Origin: Pseudonocardia broussonetiae
Lineage (GTDB): Bacteria > Actinomycetota > Actinomycetes > Mycobacteriales > Pseudonocardiaceae
Length of the DNA stretch: 64,000 nt
Direction: 5' to 3'
Assembly: GCF_013155125.1 (NCBI RefSeq)
Contig: NZ_CP053564.1
Coordinates: forward strand, 3,479,501-3,543,500
This document shows, in pieces, positions 24,657-35,515 of the stretch; position 1 is the stretch's first letter; every line of letters starts with the position of its first letter. Position numbers and translations under genes: made by a program. The notes beneath the pieces were generated by a model. The model did no database searches, was not told where the DNA came from, and saw nothing but the letters and a program-made list of their open reading frames with translations.

Positions 24657-25400
24657 ATGGTGGCTGCCACCACCCGGGCGGTGTCGCTGGTCGCCCCCTC
24701 CGGCGCGCCGGTGGAGCTGGAGGTGCCGGACGCGTTCGGTGACTTCCGGTGGTACGGCAGCACCCGGTTCGCCGGGCCGTACATGTCGCGGCAGTTCTTC
24801 CTGGCGCCGCTCGGGCAGCACCGCGCGATCCCGACGCACGTGATGCCGGGCGCGACCGAGCGCGTGCAGCCGATGCGCGGCTACGACGCCGTCGTCTACG
24901 AGGCGCGCGACCGCTCCGACTCCGCGCTCGTCCTCGCCGGCCCGCACCACGAGGCCACCACCTGGTTCGGCGGGCCCGCGCCCGACCTCATGGGCGTCAG
25001 CACGATGCTCACCTCCTTCCGCTACGACGACGGCCCGCGCGGCGCGGCGCTGACGCCGGCGGCGCCGCTGCTGGTGTCGCAGCCCGACGTCGCGCTGATC
25101 GGGCACAGCGAGTCGGCCACGCTGATCGTCCGCCGCTCCGTCGACGTCCTGCCGAGCCTGCCGGAGTGGGCCGGGCTCGCCCTGCCCGGCGGCGAGCTGT
25201 GGCGCGCCGGGCGCGAGATGGACGCCCGCGCCGCCGCGCTGACCGCGGGCGGCCCGCACAGCTGGCGCTACGTCCTCGCCGGCGACAGCGTCGCGATGGA
25301 CCTGGTGCTGCTCGGCCCGGAGTCCGGCCGCGCGCCCACCACGATGGCCGAGGACCAGATCGTCGACGCGCTCGGCGCACTGTCCGGACGCTGGACCTGA
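24657..25400 (+). CDS. Unknown soluble protein, first gene of Mau-like redox cluster
   Basis: A 247-residue protein with no signal peptide, no membrane segment and no cysteine, beginning VAATTRAVSLVAPSGAPVELEV. It is mixed alpha/beta in look, with aromatic stretches (FGDFRWYGSTRFAGPYMSRQFF). I do not recognise the family. GGAGG at 24646-24650 supports the ATG at 24657. It is followed after 13 nt by the MauD-like gene, then by three overlapping genes, so it likely opens a five-gene operon. Its role could be a partner, chaperone or catalytic subunit for the exported cysteine-rich protein; this rests on position only. Confidence 0.72.
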   Translation: MVAATTRAVSLVAPSGAPVELEVPDAFGDFRWYGSTRFAGPYMSRQFFLAPLGQHRAIPTHVMPGATERVQPMRGYDAVVYEARDRSDSALVLAGPHHEATTWFGGPAPDLMGVSTMLTSFRYDDGPRGAALTPAAPLLVSQPDVALIGHSESATLIVRRSVDVLPSLPEWAGLALPGGELWRAGREMDARAAALTAGGPHSWRYVLAGDSVAMDLVLLGPESGRAPTTMAEDQIVDALGALSGRWT

Positions 25401-25413
25401 CGGGAACGGACAC

Positions 25414-25908
25414 ATGACCCTCACGCTCGCCGTGGCGCTGATCGCGCTGCTCGTCGCCCTGTTCGCGCTCGTCGCGCTCGTCGCCGTGTACGCGCGGGTG
25501 CGCGCCCTGGAGACCGGCCGCGCGGCCGAGCTGTCGGGCTACGCCCCGCTCGTCGGACGCCCGGCGCCCGCCGCGGTGCGCCCCCGCGAGGGGGAGAGCG
25601 GCGCGCTGGTGGCCGTCCTCGACGCCGACTGCGCGCAGTGCCACGACGTCTACGCCCTCCTCGGCGAGGTCAGCCGCCCGGGCGTCCGGTTCGCCGCGGT
25701 GGCCGACCGCGCCGACTTCGCCGAGTCGCTGGCCGAGCTCGTCGTCGACCCCGAGGTCCGCGGCGCGCTGTTCGAGGGCTACTCGCCGACCGTGCTCGCC
25801 CTCGACGCCCGCGGCGTCGTCGTCCGCCGCCGCTTCGTCTACGCCGACACCGACGTCCGGGCCCTGCTGCTCGACCTGGTCGCGGAGCACGAGGTGGCCC
25901 GCGCATGA
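25414..25908 (+). CDS. Membrane-anchored thioredoxin-fold protein, MauD-like
   Basis: A 164-residue protein: one N-terminal membrane helix (about residues 3-25), a short linker, then a thioredoxin fold with a CAQC active site (Cys73, Cys76) in VLDADCAQCHDVY and a cis-proline loop GYSPTVLALD. This is the architecture of MauD and similar periplasmic-facing disulfide enzymes that mature the disulfide-rich methylamine dehydrogenase light chain. The stop overlaps the ATG of the Tat-exported six-cysteine protein, which is its likely substrate. mauB, mauG and mauF are not present in the window, so true methylamine dehydrogenase is not implied. Confidence 0.75.
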   Translation: MTLTLAVALIALLVALFALVALVAVYARVRALETGRAAELSGYAPLVGRPAPAAVRPREGESGALVAVLDADCAQCHDVYALLGEVSRPGVRFAAVADRADFAESLAELVVDPEVRGALFEGYSPTVLALDARGVVVRRRFVYADTDVRALLLDLVAEHEVARA

Positions 25909-26633
25909 CGCGCCTCGACGAGATCCCCACGGCGTCCCAGCCGCCCGCCGGCGCGGTGCCCAGCGCCGTCGTCGCGCGCATCCGGGCCGTGCGCCCGAGC
26001 CGGCGCACGGTGCTGCGCGGGCTCGTGATCGCCGCGGCCGCCGCCGCGCTCGTGCCGCTGGACTGGTTCCTGGTGCGGCGCGAGGCCGCGGCGCAGTCGA
26101 CCGAGGGCGACGACAAGGCCGAGCACCTGGGCTGCAAGCCCGAGAGCTACCGCGAGGAGGCCGACAACTGGCCCTCCACCGGCACGGCGGTCTGCTACGG
26201 CGGCTGGCGCCGCGGCGGCTTCCCCTGCTCCAACGGATACCACCGCGAGGGCAGCTACACCGACGGCCCCGACTCCTACGAGTCCACGCGCGTCACCCAG
26301 AGCTGCCACGGCCGCAACGCCTGGCGGTGGAACGGCTACCGCTGCTCGGACGCGACGACGACGGTCGTCTACGCCGACGGCACCGACTACCGCGGCATCA
26401 CCATCGCCGCCTGCCCCGTGCCGGCCGGCTCGCCCGCGAACACCCCGGAGCCCGACCCGCCGGCCGAGACCCCCGAGCGCACCGGCGGCGACGACGGGCA
26501 GAGCGACCCCGGCCGCGGTGACGACGACACGCAGAGCGATCCCGGCCGCGGCGACGACGAGGGCGGCGGCCTGCTGTCCGGCATCGGCGCGCGCTTCCCG
26601 GCCGGGCGCTGGGCCCCGGTCCCGGCGCGGTGA
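25905..26633 (+). CDS. Tat-exported six-cysteine protein, light-chain-like
   Basis: A 242-residue precursor. SRRTVLRGL (Arg33, Arg34) plus a hydrophobic core forms a twin-arginine signal, with cleavage probably after AAAQS near residue 65. The mature domain of about 105 residues has six cysteines (77, 97, 108, 134, 147, 170) and clustered aromatics (Trp89, Trp101, Trp140, Trp142, many Tyr). The tail is a Pro/Asp/Gly linker with two QSDPGRGDDD-type repeats and ends in a short basic/hydrophobic segment. Tat export, disulfide density and flanking MauD-like and membrane redox genes recall the methylamine dehydrogenase light chain MauA, whose two Trp form a quinone cofactor, but sequence homology is not evident to me. 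It overlaps both neighbours by 4 nt. Confidence 0.72.
   Translation: MTRLDEIPTASQPPAGAVPSAVVARIRAVRPSRRTVLRGLVIAAAAAALVPLDWFLVRREAAAQSTEGDDKAEHLGCKPESYREEADNWPSTGTAVCYGGWRRGGFPCSNGYHREGSYTDGPDSYESTRVTQSCHGRNAWRWNGYRCSDATTTVVYADGTDYRGITIAACPVPAGSPANTPEPDPPAETPERTGGDDGQSDPGRGDDDTQSDPGRGDDEGGGLLSGIGARFPAGRWAPVPAR
26500..26565. repeat. Imperfect 33-bp tandem duplication in the Tat protein tail
   Basis: Two adjacent copies encode GQSDPGRGDDD and TQSDPGRGDDE in the disordered C-terminal tail. Boundaries are approximate to a few bases. Confidence 0.6.
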
Positions 26634-27340
26634 CCCGCCACGCCCTGCACCCCGCCACCACCGCGGTGGCGCTGCTCGTGCTGGCCGGGCTCGGCGCGTG
26701 GCTGCCCGCACCGCTGCTGCTCGCCGCGGTGGCCGGCGCGGGCGCCGGGTTCGCCAACTCCGGCAGCACTTGAAGCCACAACTCGGCGTTCCTGCTGAGC
26801 GCGTCGGTCTGGCGCGGATCCCCGGTCGTGCGGTACTTCGGTGCCGGCCTGCTCCTCGGCGCGGTGCTCGTGGCGTTCGTCGCGGGCGTCGTGGGGGCGG
26901 TGCCCCAGGCGCTCGTGCCCGCGCCCGTCCGCTGGGCCCTGCTCGGCGCGGCGGCGCTCGCGGTGCTGGCGCGCGAGTGCGGCCTGGTGGCGTTCCGGGT
27001 GCCGGAGAACGCGCGGCTCGTGCCCGAGGACGTGCAGCACCTGCGCGAGTGGGGCGCGCTGCAGTTCGGGTTCGAGATGGGCACCGGGATGCGGACGTAC
27101 TCGCCGTCGGCGCTGCCGCACCTGGTCCTGCTGGCCGTCGTGCTGGTGGTGCCGTTCCCGGCGGCGTTCGCCGTGGCGGCCGGGTTCGCGGCGGGCCGGC
27201 TGGCGATGCCCCTGCTCTCCAACGCCTGGAGCGACGACGGCGGCTGGACCGCGGTGTGGGAGCGCACACAGGCCCGGGTGCGGCCGCTGCTGGCCCTGAC
27301 CGTGGTGGGCGCGCTGGCGGGGATCATGCTGGGCGCGTGA
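26630..27340 (+). CDS. Polytopic membrane protein with in-frame TGA (possible selenoprotein or nonsense mutant)
   Basis: Reading from GTG 26630, which overlaps the previous stop, to TGA 27340 gives 236 codons with one internal TGA at 26771-26773 (codon 48). G/C-ending codon use and hydrophobic character continue on both sides, so this is one gene. The product has about five membrane helices. Codon 48 falls in a polar loop (NSGST-TGA-SHNSAF) after the first two hydrophobic stretches, and the only cysteine is about residue 117 (ARECGL). A hairpin with GGTCT apical loop lies 32 nt after the TGA. Readings are selenocysteine insertion, a recent TGG-to-TGA mutation with restart at GTG 26828, or a sequence error. 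By position it corresponds to MauE in mau clusters; homology is not demonstrated. Confidence 0.65.
26800..26816 (+). other. SECIS-like hairpin downstream of in-frame TGA
   Basis: CGCGTC-GGTCT-GGCGCG forms a 6-bp stem, one pair being T-G wobble, with a five-base GGTCT apical loop. The loop's first G is 32 nt after the TGA at 26771-26773. Bacterial SECIS elements carry a GGU(C/U) apical loop a few tens of nucleotides after the UGA. A short GC hairpin can arise by chance here, so this is a candidate only. Confidence 0.35.
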
Positions 27341-27651
27341 AGACGGTGTCGGTCGTCGCGGTCTACGACGTGTCCTGCCCCAGCTGCTCGGAGATCGCGC
27401 GCGAGCTGCCCGAGCTGCTCCGCGTGCCCGTCACGGTGCGCTCCTGCCGCGACCCGGAGCTGCCCGCCTCGGTGCCGGCCGCGGTGCGCCGCTGCGGCAC
27501 CCCGGCACTGGGCACGGTGCGCCCCGACGGCTCCGTGCGCTGGTGGACGGGGCTGACGGGTGCGGTCGGGGTGCTGCCGGTCGTGCGGCCGGGGGCGGCG
27601 CGCGAGGCCGTGGCGCTCCTGTGGAGCGCTTTCCGCACCCCGAGACACTAG
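27337..27651 (+). CDS. Small thioredoxin-fold protein with CPSC motif
   Basis: A 104-residue cytoplasmic protein with a thioredoxin/glutaredoxin pattern: strand VSVVAVYDVSCPSCSEIARELPELL with active site CPSC (residues 14-17), then CGTPALGTVRPDG with the cis-proline after Thr. Two more cysteines occur near residues 37 and 52. GTG at 27337 overlaps the stop of the membrane protein, so it closes the operon. It could supply electrons to the membrane protein, and through it to the exported MauD-like enzyme; this is inference. Confidence 0.72.
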   Translation: MKTVSVVAVYDVSCPSCSEIARELPELLRVPVTVRSCRDPELPASVPAAVRRCGTPALGTVRPDGSVRWWTGLTGAVGVLPVVRPGAAREAVALLWSAFRTPRH

Positions 27652-33712: not shown

Positions 33713-35089
33713 GTGGGCACGCGCCTGCTGGTGATCATGGTCGTGGTGGTGGGGCTGCTCGCCGCCGGCCTGGGGGTGCCGCTCGCGCTGGCCAGCGCCG
33801 CGGCCGCCCAGCAGGACCTGTTCACCCGGCGCCTCATCGACACCATCTACTACGCCTCGTCGGCCGAGCGCCCGCTCACCGAGGCCGACACCTCCCAGCT
33901 CGCCGCCGCCCTGCGCCGTTACGACGAGGTCTACGGCGACGCCGTGCTGGTGCTCGACGCCGCCGGCGAGCCGGTCGTGGCCTCCCGGACGCCCGCGCCG
34001 GTGCTCGACGAGGACGGGCGCGAGCGCGTGGTGCTGGCGCTGGCCCGCCAGCCGTCCAAGCCCTACCCGCTGCTCCTGCCCTGGGACGACCGGCCGATGG
34101 TGCTCGCCGAGCCGGTGCTGGCCGACACCGAGGTGCGCGGGGTCGTCGTCACGATCTCCTCGACGGCCCCGCTCCGCGCCGACGAGCTGCGCACCTGGAC
34201 GCTGGTGGCCGCGGCGGCGCTGGTCGCGCTGGCCGTCGGCGTGCTCGTCGCGCTGCCGGTGGTGCGCTGGATCCTGCGCCCGGTGCGCCGCCTCGACGAG
34301 GGCACCGGGCGCGTCGCCGTCGCGGTGCTGGCGGGGGAGCGGCCCGACCCGGTCGCGGACGGCTCCGGGCCGCCCGAGCTGCGGCGGCTGTCGGCGTCGT
34401 TCGACCGCATGGCCGAGCAGGTCACGCAGGCCTACTCGGCGCAGCGCGCGTTCGTCGCCGACGCCAGCCACCAGCTGCGCAACCCGCTCACGGCGCTGCG
34501 GCTGCGCCTGTCCAACCTGCACGGCCACGTCGCCGAGGACGCCGCCGACGACCACGTCGCCGCGCTGGAGGAGGCCGAGCGCCTCTCCACGCTGCTCGAC
34601 GGGCTGCTGGCGCTCGCCCGCGCCGAGCGCACCCGGCCGGTCGTACCGCTCGGGATCGACGCCGGCGTCGACGACCGGCTGGAGGCCTGGCGCCCGCTCG
34701 CCGAGCACAGCGGCCTGCACCTGGTCCGCGAGGGCACCCGCGGGCTGCGGGCGATCGGGCCGGAGGGCGCGGTCGAGACGGTGCTGGACGCGGTGCTCGA
34801 CAACGCCGTGAAGTTCACCCCGCCCGGCGGGACGGTGCGGGTGCGGACCGGTGTCGTCGACGGGCAGGTGGAGATCGCCGTCCGCGACACCGGCCCGGGG
34901 CTGGCCCCCGACGAGCTCGAGCGCGCCACCGACCGCTTCTGGCGCAGCCCCGGCCAGATCAACACCGAGGGCTCGGGGCTCGGGCTGGCCATCGCCGCGC
35001 GCACGGTCGAGCTCGGGGGCGGCGAGCTGGGCCTGGACCTGCCCGCCGGGGGCGGGCTGCGGGTGACGGCGCGGCTACCCCGCGCGTGA
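33713..35089 (+). CDS. Sensor histidine kinase, GluK-like
   Basis: A 458-residue kinase: membrane helix about 5-27, extracytoplasmic sensor about 28-155, second helix about 160-182, HAMP linker, then the H-box [20 protein letters not shown] with the phospho-His. N, G1 and G2 boxes follow ([35 protein letters not shown]). GTG at 33713 is 3 nt after the regulator stop. Its likely ligand is an amino acid such as glutamate because of the adjacent gluABCD; this is inferred from the Streptomyces precedent. Confidence 0.9.
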
Positions 35090-35515
35090 CGGCTCGCGCA
35101 CCGGCGCCACCGCGCGCACCACGAGGTGCGCGAGCAGCCCCAGCGGGGCGAGCAGGATCGTCAGCAGCAGCACCGGCGCCATGACGAGCGGGTGGATCCC
35201 GCGCTCGCGGGCGTCGAGGTGGCACCAACGGCCGACGAACAGGTCGAACGCGATGAAGTGGGCCCACCCGGCCGCCGCGCCGACCGGCGTGCCGAGGAGC
35301 GCGGCCACGCCCGCGATCCGCGGGTCCGCGACGGCCGGCAGCACCGTGCCGAGGTCGGGCAGCACGGCGAGGGCGTAGACCAGTGCGGGCGGCACGACGA
35401 TCAGCGGGGAGGAGACGATCCGCTGCGTCCACTACCAGCCCGGGGCCACGATCATCAGAGCCCAGAACGGGAGGGCGAGCGGGAAGGCCAGGGAGAAGAG
35501 CAGTTCCGGGCTCAT
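35075..35515 (-). pseudogene. ABA4-like (DUF4281) membrane protein gene with in-frame TAG
   Basis: Reading from ATG 35515 gives SPELLFSLAFPLALPFWALM then IVAPGW, then TAG at 35432-35434, then WTQRIVSSPLIVVPPALVYALAVLPDLG and on to a stop at 35075. Both halves match one ABA4-like four-helix protein with no frameshift, including FIAFDLFVGRWCHLDARERGI in the second half. So a single amber codon at position 28 interrupts an otherwise intact gene. Restart at codons after the stop may give a 106-residue fragment. The ATG overlaps the stop of the upstream membrane-protein gene, so the two form one operon. A sequencing error would also explain this. The 3' end overlaps the kinase gene tail by 15 nt. 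Confidence 0.72.

Follow-up and report, generated by a model that had tools for sequence, protein, structure and literature searches.

The locus examined here, in the genome of Pseudonocardia broussonetiae, raises the question of whether a TGA codon inside a membrane-protein frame marks a broken gene or a site at which selenocysteine (Sec) is inserted. The window, the whole stretch of 64,000 nucleotides analysed (NZ_CP053564.1, positions 3,479,501 to 3,543,500), holds a frame that runs from a GTG at 26630 to a stop TGA at 27338-27340 and is broken by a single internal stop at codon 48, as the preliminary description had stated and an ORF check confirmed. The GTG overlaps the stop of the upstream gene and the terminal stop overlaps the start of the next gene, in both cases within a GTGA, and the gene is therefore situated inside a tight gene run (Table 1). 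A second in-frame stop at 35432, which had been counted against Sec, proved to be a TAG that belongs to a different, minus-strand gene and has no bearing on the question. This TAG (35432-35434) follows the residues APGW in a small membrane-protein gene at about 35075-35510, which we take to be ABA4-like.

Table 1. Coordinates of the gene run, of the internal TGA and of the hairpins that follow it, in window positions.
Feature	Position	Strand	Remarks
Conserved neighbour, family A5, 247 aa	24657..25400	+	found by tblastn in 57/80 loci
Membrane-anchored thioredoxin-like protein (predicted), CxxC Cys73/Cys76	25414..25908	+	found by tblastn in 36/80 loci
Tat-exported six-Cys protein (predicted)	25905..26633	+	found by tblastn in 55/80 loci; RR, NAWRW..RCSD motif
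Selenoprotein gene (predicted)	26630..27340	+	236-residue membrane protein via TGA read-through
TGA codon 48, predicted Sec	26771..26773	+	TGA kept in 91/93 homologous loci
Proximal hairpin	26782..26799	+	between TGA and SECIS hairpin; comparative pairing
Bacterial SECIS hairpin (predicted)	26800..26816	+	6-bp stem, apical loop GGUCU
Cytosolic CxxC redox protein (predicted)	27337..27651	+	found by tblastn in 31/80 loci (searched as 27340-27648)

In order to follow the fate of codon 48, 93 homologous loci were compared, encompassing 80 loci (99 were found) and 13 strong matches from 298 genomes of the order. The latter are situated in 12 genomes and one of them is the window itself. The sampling leans towards genomes which have pattern words in common with the query, and three weak matches (L110-L112, E 1e-5 to 3e-4), not recovered by tblastn, are not among the 93. 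Codon 48 is a TGA, rather than a Trp codon, in all but two of these loci (89 by tblastn, while L056 and L084 were placed by motif), which greatly exceeds what chance would give. The 91 TGA loci represent 82 distinct sequences over the first 60 nt, some genes being present in both collections. Two loci depart from this pattern: L052 (Pseudonocardia thermophila), in which the motif is lost, and L058 (Pseudonocardia sp. CNS-139), in which homology starts at residue 104 and a frame break is seen. As selA is also present in two pieces in the CNS-139 draft, both defects are probably assembly errors. The motif surrounding the TGA reads SGSxU[ST]xNSA, and S44, G45, S46, U48, N51, S52, A53 and R62 are invariant in 91/91 loci, as are several residues of a second conserved block extending from F146 to T156. 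None of the Cys residues is conserved among the 91 TGA loci. This includes Cys117, earlier suggested to pair with the Sec, which is thus ruled out as a resolving partner. Nor was any Cys form of the Sec site found within the window's own family (93 loci).

The SECIS loop of Escherichia coli fdhF is of the GGUCU type. The hairpin predicted in the window, with a stem formed by 26800-26805 and 26811-26816 and the loop GGTCT at 26806-26810, shares with this type the short stem and the loop downstream of the UGA, and differs from it in the distance of the loop (32 nt past the TGA) and in an extra, proximal hairpin that separates the UGA from the SECIS stem. Stem, loop and distance were confirmed as the preliminary description had given them and, as for the fdhF type, they fall inside the bSECIS limits stated in the passages of PMC13188914 on such elements (loop 3-9 nt, stem 4-16 bp, an early G, 16-37 nt spacing and an MFE of at most -7.5), the values for the window being a loop of 5, a stem of 6, GG, 32 nt and -9.4 kcal/mol. 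Eleven of 200 shuffled sequences fold equally well. Folding of the longer stretch 26774-26840, proposed earlier as a check, was no better than that of shuffles (z 0.46), and the evidence for the predicted hairpin is comparative.

All six pairs of the distal hairpin are formed in 78 of the 82 distinct sequences and five pairs in the other four, and the loop is GGTCT in 69 of the 82. In a synonymous-codon null based on the family's own codon usage (n=81, L082 being excluded because of a codon deletion), a mean of 9.8% was fully paired (z 29) and 0/200 sets reached the observed value. The codon of an invariant Arg covaries with the codon opposite to it (GCG/CGC 35, TCG/CGA 29, TCG/CGG 15, TCG/CGT 1 and ACG/CGG 1). 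In an alignment of 48 sequences (the window and 47 loci, 46 of them distinct), the covariation score was reached by 0/500 shuffles and was lowered by sliding the partner. Only one pair of the distal stem varies on both sides and three pairs never vary, so that the case for this stem rests on one strongly covarying pair combined with codon choice. For the proximal hairpin, 6/6 pairs are formed in 51 of 81 sequences (without L082; z 15.7 against the synonymous null), and 86.2% of the cells are paired.

The machinery for Sec insertion, which had been named as a further check, is present in the genome, represented by selA (381 bits), tRNA-Sec (selC, 74 bits, anticodon TCA), selD (384 bits) and selB. 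Searched as a whole protein, the latter scores 256 bits against a cut-off of 242, and in a six-frame search it reaches 239 bits, just below this cut-off. The sel genes lie between C1:337277 and about 347,200. All 12 family-positive genomes of the order contain selA over the cut-off, which is in itself modest evidence since 203 of the 298 genomes do so, and selA was likewise found in 18/18 TGA-bearing genomes chosen from 78 TGA loci. The genome of P. thermophila, in which the TGA motif is lost, gave no selA match either. The flanks, up to 5 kb, contain selA, selB or selC in 14 of the 80 loci (L037, L054, L057, L061, L072, L078, L079, L082, L083, L087, L088, L095, L096 and L097), and selA is located about 3.4 kb from the family gene in G111 and about 1.8 kb in G157. 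At another locus (L108:404-487) ARAGORN calls a tRNA-Pyl with the anticodon CTA, a call that is perhaps spurious.

A phylum-wide search of 396 genomes with a 55-row family alignment revealed a sister clade with the motif [S/G/D]P[U/C]GxSM near the same place as the Sec motif of the window family. The two groups match in hhalign at 99.1% (E 4e-19, columns 72-234). A 21-row alignment of the sister clade gave 76 matches in the same 396 genomes, of which 63 cover the site and 13 do not, and inspection of the DNA of all 63 identified 55 TGA and 8 TGC codons. The mix of TGA and Cys codons that had been sought at this position is therefore seen in the sister clade, though not within the window's own family. 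The exchange tracks selA, which was identified in 52 of the 54 genomes carrying a TGA copy compared to 0/7 with a Cys copy only (Fisher p 8e-8). One genome, G393, carries both TGA and Cys copies together with selA and is counted among the 54 (p 9e-8 without it). Two genomes were scored positive on incomplete matches, G492 on a fragment and G319 on two halves under the cut-off, while the two TGA-copy genomes in which selA was not found are 68% and 73% complete. Sec copies of the sister clade show modest extra folding compared to the synonymous null (mean z -1.6, 27 copies), the corresponding value for Cys copies being -0.4 (9 loci, one gene twice). A joint alignment places the Sec columns of the two groups together, a result that depends on the Sec/Cys residue itself, as the two columns were not brought together when this column was masked.

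The conservation of the TGA, the covariation of the hairpin, the presence of the Sec machinery, the linkage to sel genes and the Sec/Cys exchange tracking selA in the sister clade together make it very likely, from comparative sequence evidence, that the TGA is read as Sec and that the gene encodes a membrane selenoprotein, as the preliminary description had proposed. That description had also raised a TGG-to-TGA mutation or a sequencing error as a caveat, in which case an ordinary gene would recently have become, or would merely look like, a pseudogene. A frame that is open apart from one stop is what such an event would leave, and L052 and L058 show that loss or breakage of the gene is possible, but the occurrence of the same TGA in nearly every locus, across many genera and followed by a covarying hairpin, reduces the probability of this explanation to next to nothing, and the conservation of the TGA led to its rejection. 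It is also very improbable, if somewhat less so, that leaky termination allows the TGA to be read as another amino acid such as Trp, with the hairpin acting as a general read-through element. Trp does occupy the site in P0121, a full-length relative of 241 aa (a metagenome protein from a 921-bp JGI contig), where the codon may be a genuine TGG or a TGA to which code 4 was applied. However, the residue found in the non-TGA copies of the sister clade is Cys in 8/8 cases. Seven of the eight genomes with such Cys copies lack a selA match and the eighth, G393, has a TGA copy and selA besides, and the adjoining sel genes in 14 of the 80 loci likewise argue for Sec rather than for another amino acid.

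The possible role of the selenoprotein is suggested by its predicted structure. The AlphaFold2 model of the 236-residue protein is all-helical (pLDDT 93.5, pTM 0.91) with two helix breaks, one immediately ahead of the Sec (residues 43-46) and the other at residues 153-161. The second break (GTGMRTYSPSA) appears pseudo-symmetric to the first in the model and has no counterpart of the Cys found at this place in CcdA. CcdA has a six-TM layout in which TM1 and TM4 are broken, and the predicted helices suggest for the selenoprotein this same layout of the CcdA/DsbD TM domain (PF02683, PF13386), while the SP[U/C] of the sister clade falls at the CcdA SPC site. Members of the sister clade match the Pfam models DsbD_2 (11/21) and DsbD_TM (5/21) at E 0.1 or better (best 1.2e-10), and hhalign relates the clade to an alignment of CcdA (18 sequences chosen from 25 loci) at 94% with SPC aligned. 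The window family differs from CcdA by its extra N-terminal helix and by having a Sec in place of the first Cys and no second conserved Cys, so that the two redox Cys of CcdA/DsbD, one per half, are here represented by one Sec only. It also differs in giving no direct sequence match: hhalign against CcdA found none, CcdA/DsbD family models matched 0/55 members at E 0.1, and a masked MAFFT alignment joined the sister clade with CcdA without placing the Sec of the window family on the CcdA Cys. The Foldseek match to CcdA is weak (5vkv, prob 0.47, E 0.41), and CcdA is absent among the 50 VIA rows listed. Kinship with CcdA is thus traced via the sister clade, and on these grounds we infer that the selenoprotein may be a divergent transmembrane redox carrier of the CcdA/DsbD type. 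Another DsbD-related selenoprotein is TsoB (NF045694), listed in Table 1 of PMC13188914 as rhodanese/DsbD fusion-like with the motif UxxxxU. By this table description it differs in having two Sec and a rhodanese part, and NF045694 of NCBIfam release 20.0 matched none of 55 window-family or 21 sister-clade members.

Both Cys of the CxxC in the anchored thioredoxin-like protein, the product of a neighbouring gene, are kept in 36/36 homologues. Its PDB matches are weak and of the DsbA/DsbE type (best E 0.0042), and by its layout it is predicted to be MauD/TlpA-like. In the Tat-type protein each of the six Cys is kept in 55/55 homologues and a WxW is invariant, and the Pfam model TAT_signal is matched at E 0.1 or better by 9/31 family members. 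The model of its mature part has a pLDDT of 72.5 and gave no convincing Foldseek/PDB match. The protein encoded at 24657 gave no Pfam match. The downstream CxxC protein carries no evident signal, and its Cys13, Cys16, Cys36 and Cys52 are invariant in 16 aligned members. In profile searches of 55 loci (L059-L113) the genes at 24657, 25414 and 25905 were found in 48, 51 and 46 loci, respectively, and the downstream gene (27340) in only five. The latter appears from its sequence distribution to be confined largely to nearer relatives, and most of the divergent members would then have to use another electron donor. In 20 of 30 sister-clade loci (L170-L199) an anchored upstream protein is matched by the model of the anchored CxxC family (25414), mainly in the anchor in those inspected. 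The anchored protein of L178 bears a CxxC, and in L176 and L183 an upstream membrane protein with CGCFG, noted by eye, is presumably DoxX/MauE-like.

The gene had earlier been assigned to a Mau cluster. In a mau layout, a membrane redox protein stands together with a membrane-anchored protein containing CxxC and with a Cys-rich protein that is exported, and in this respect the gene run in the window resembles the setting of MauE/MauD. However, no Mau family model matched the neighbours searched, whether in Pfam, NCBIfam or PDB profiles, and these searches lend the assignment no support. PF02975 was not found in the genome, a search that is uninformative because the control searches gave no match either.

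Taken together, a reading in which SelB, acting at the downstream hairpin, causes the TGA to be translated as Sec in a CcdA/DsbD-type carrier that works in a redox relay can be held with considerable confidence. The Sec would be situated where one transmembrane helix of the model is broken, and its selenol may be exposed alternately to both sides of the membrane. Mixed selenenylsulfides would link this selenol to a CxxC protein of the cytosol, in the window the product of the downstream gene, and to the membrane-anchored CxxC protein encoded upstream. Reducing equivalents would thereby be moved outward and used to shuffle disulfides in the Tat-exported six-Cys protein of the same operon, which is likely the relay substrate. 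The predicted path, from the cytosolic CxxC protein via the Sec carrier and the anchored CxxC protein to the Tat-exported protein, takes its order from the gene order, and it is a matter of guesswork which way the electrons flow and which protein is the substrate. A rather unlikely alternative, though one with some weight, is that the selenoprotein is a DsbB/VKOR-like oxidase passing electrons inward, or an accessory protein that helps to furnish the Tat protein with a Mau-like quinone cofactor. The predicted partner, with its Tat-type export, six Cys and invariant WxW, would suit such a role, and so would the mau-like layout, MauE having been speculated in a passage of PMC7794033 to form disulfides in mau clusters. 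The matches of the sister clade to DsbD/CcdA models speak against it, however, as do the absence of Mau model matches among the neighbours and the modelled Tat protein, which resembles nothing in the PDB convincingly.

The gene is, as far as seen in the proteins listed, mis-annotated in databases. A search with the frame matched 293 database proteins, and the 120 listed are 153-178 aa long and span no more than 72% of the complete frame, so that the likely active residue is missing from these entries. A family-profile search matched 395 database proteins, and among the 120 listed P0121 is the only full-length one; nearly all are fragments of about 150-190 aa without the part before the TGA. 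The family matches no name, domain or Sec motif among the 119 families and subfamilies in Table 1 of PMC13188914 (2026), NCBIfam (June 2026) matched 0/55 family members at E 0.01, and no paper describing the family was recognised in the open-licence selenoprotein literature.

Recognition of the Sec codon would add a selenoprotein family in actinobacteria and makes the single-chalcogen working of a CcdA-like carrier testable. The sister clade offers natural Sec/Cys swaps which track selA and are useful for asking what Sec buys. Many actinobacteria are soil aerobes. The odds appear evenly divided on a wider proposal, that these proteins form a widespread and so far unreported selenoprotein superfamily of Actinomycetota, in which CcdA-like carriers with one selenol would constitute a dedicated transmembrane relay for one exported protein and would help to explain why aerobic actinobacteria retain the Sec machinery. 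Paralogues occur within single genomes, and each of them has retained the TGA: three in Nonomuraea sp. G32 (L049, L068 and L080) and two in Allorhizocola rhizosphaerae (L054 and L073).
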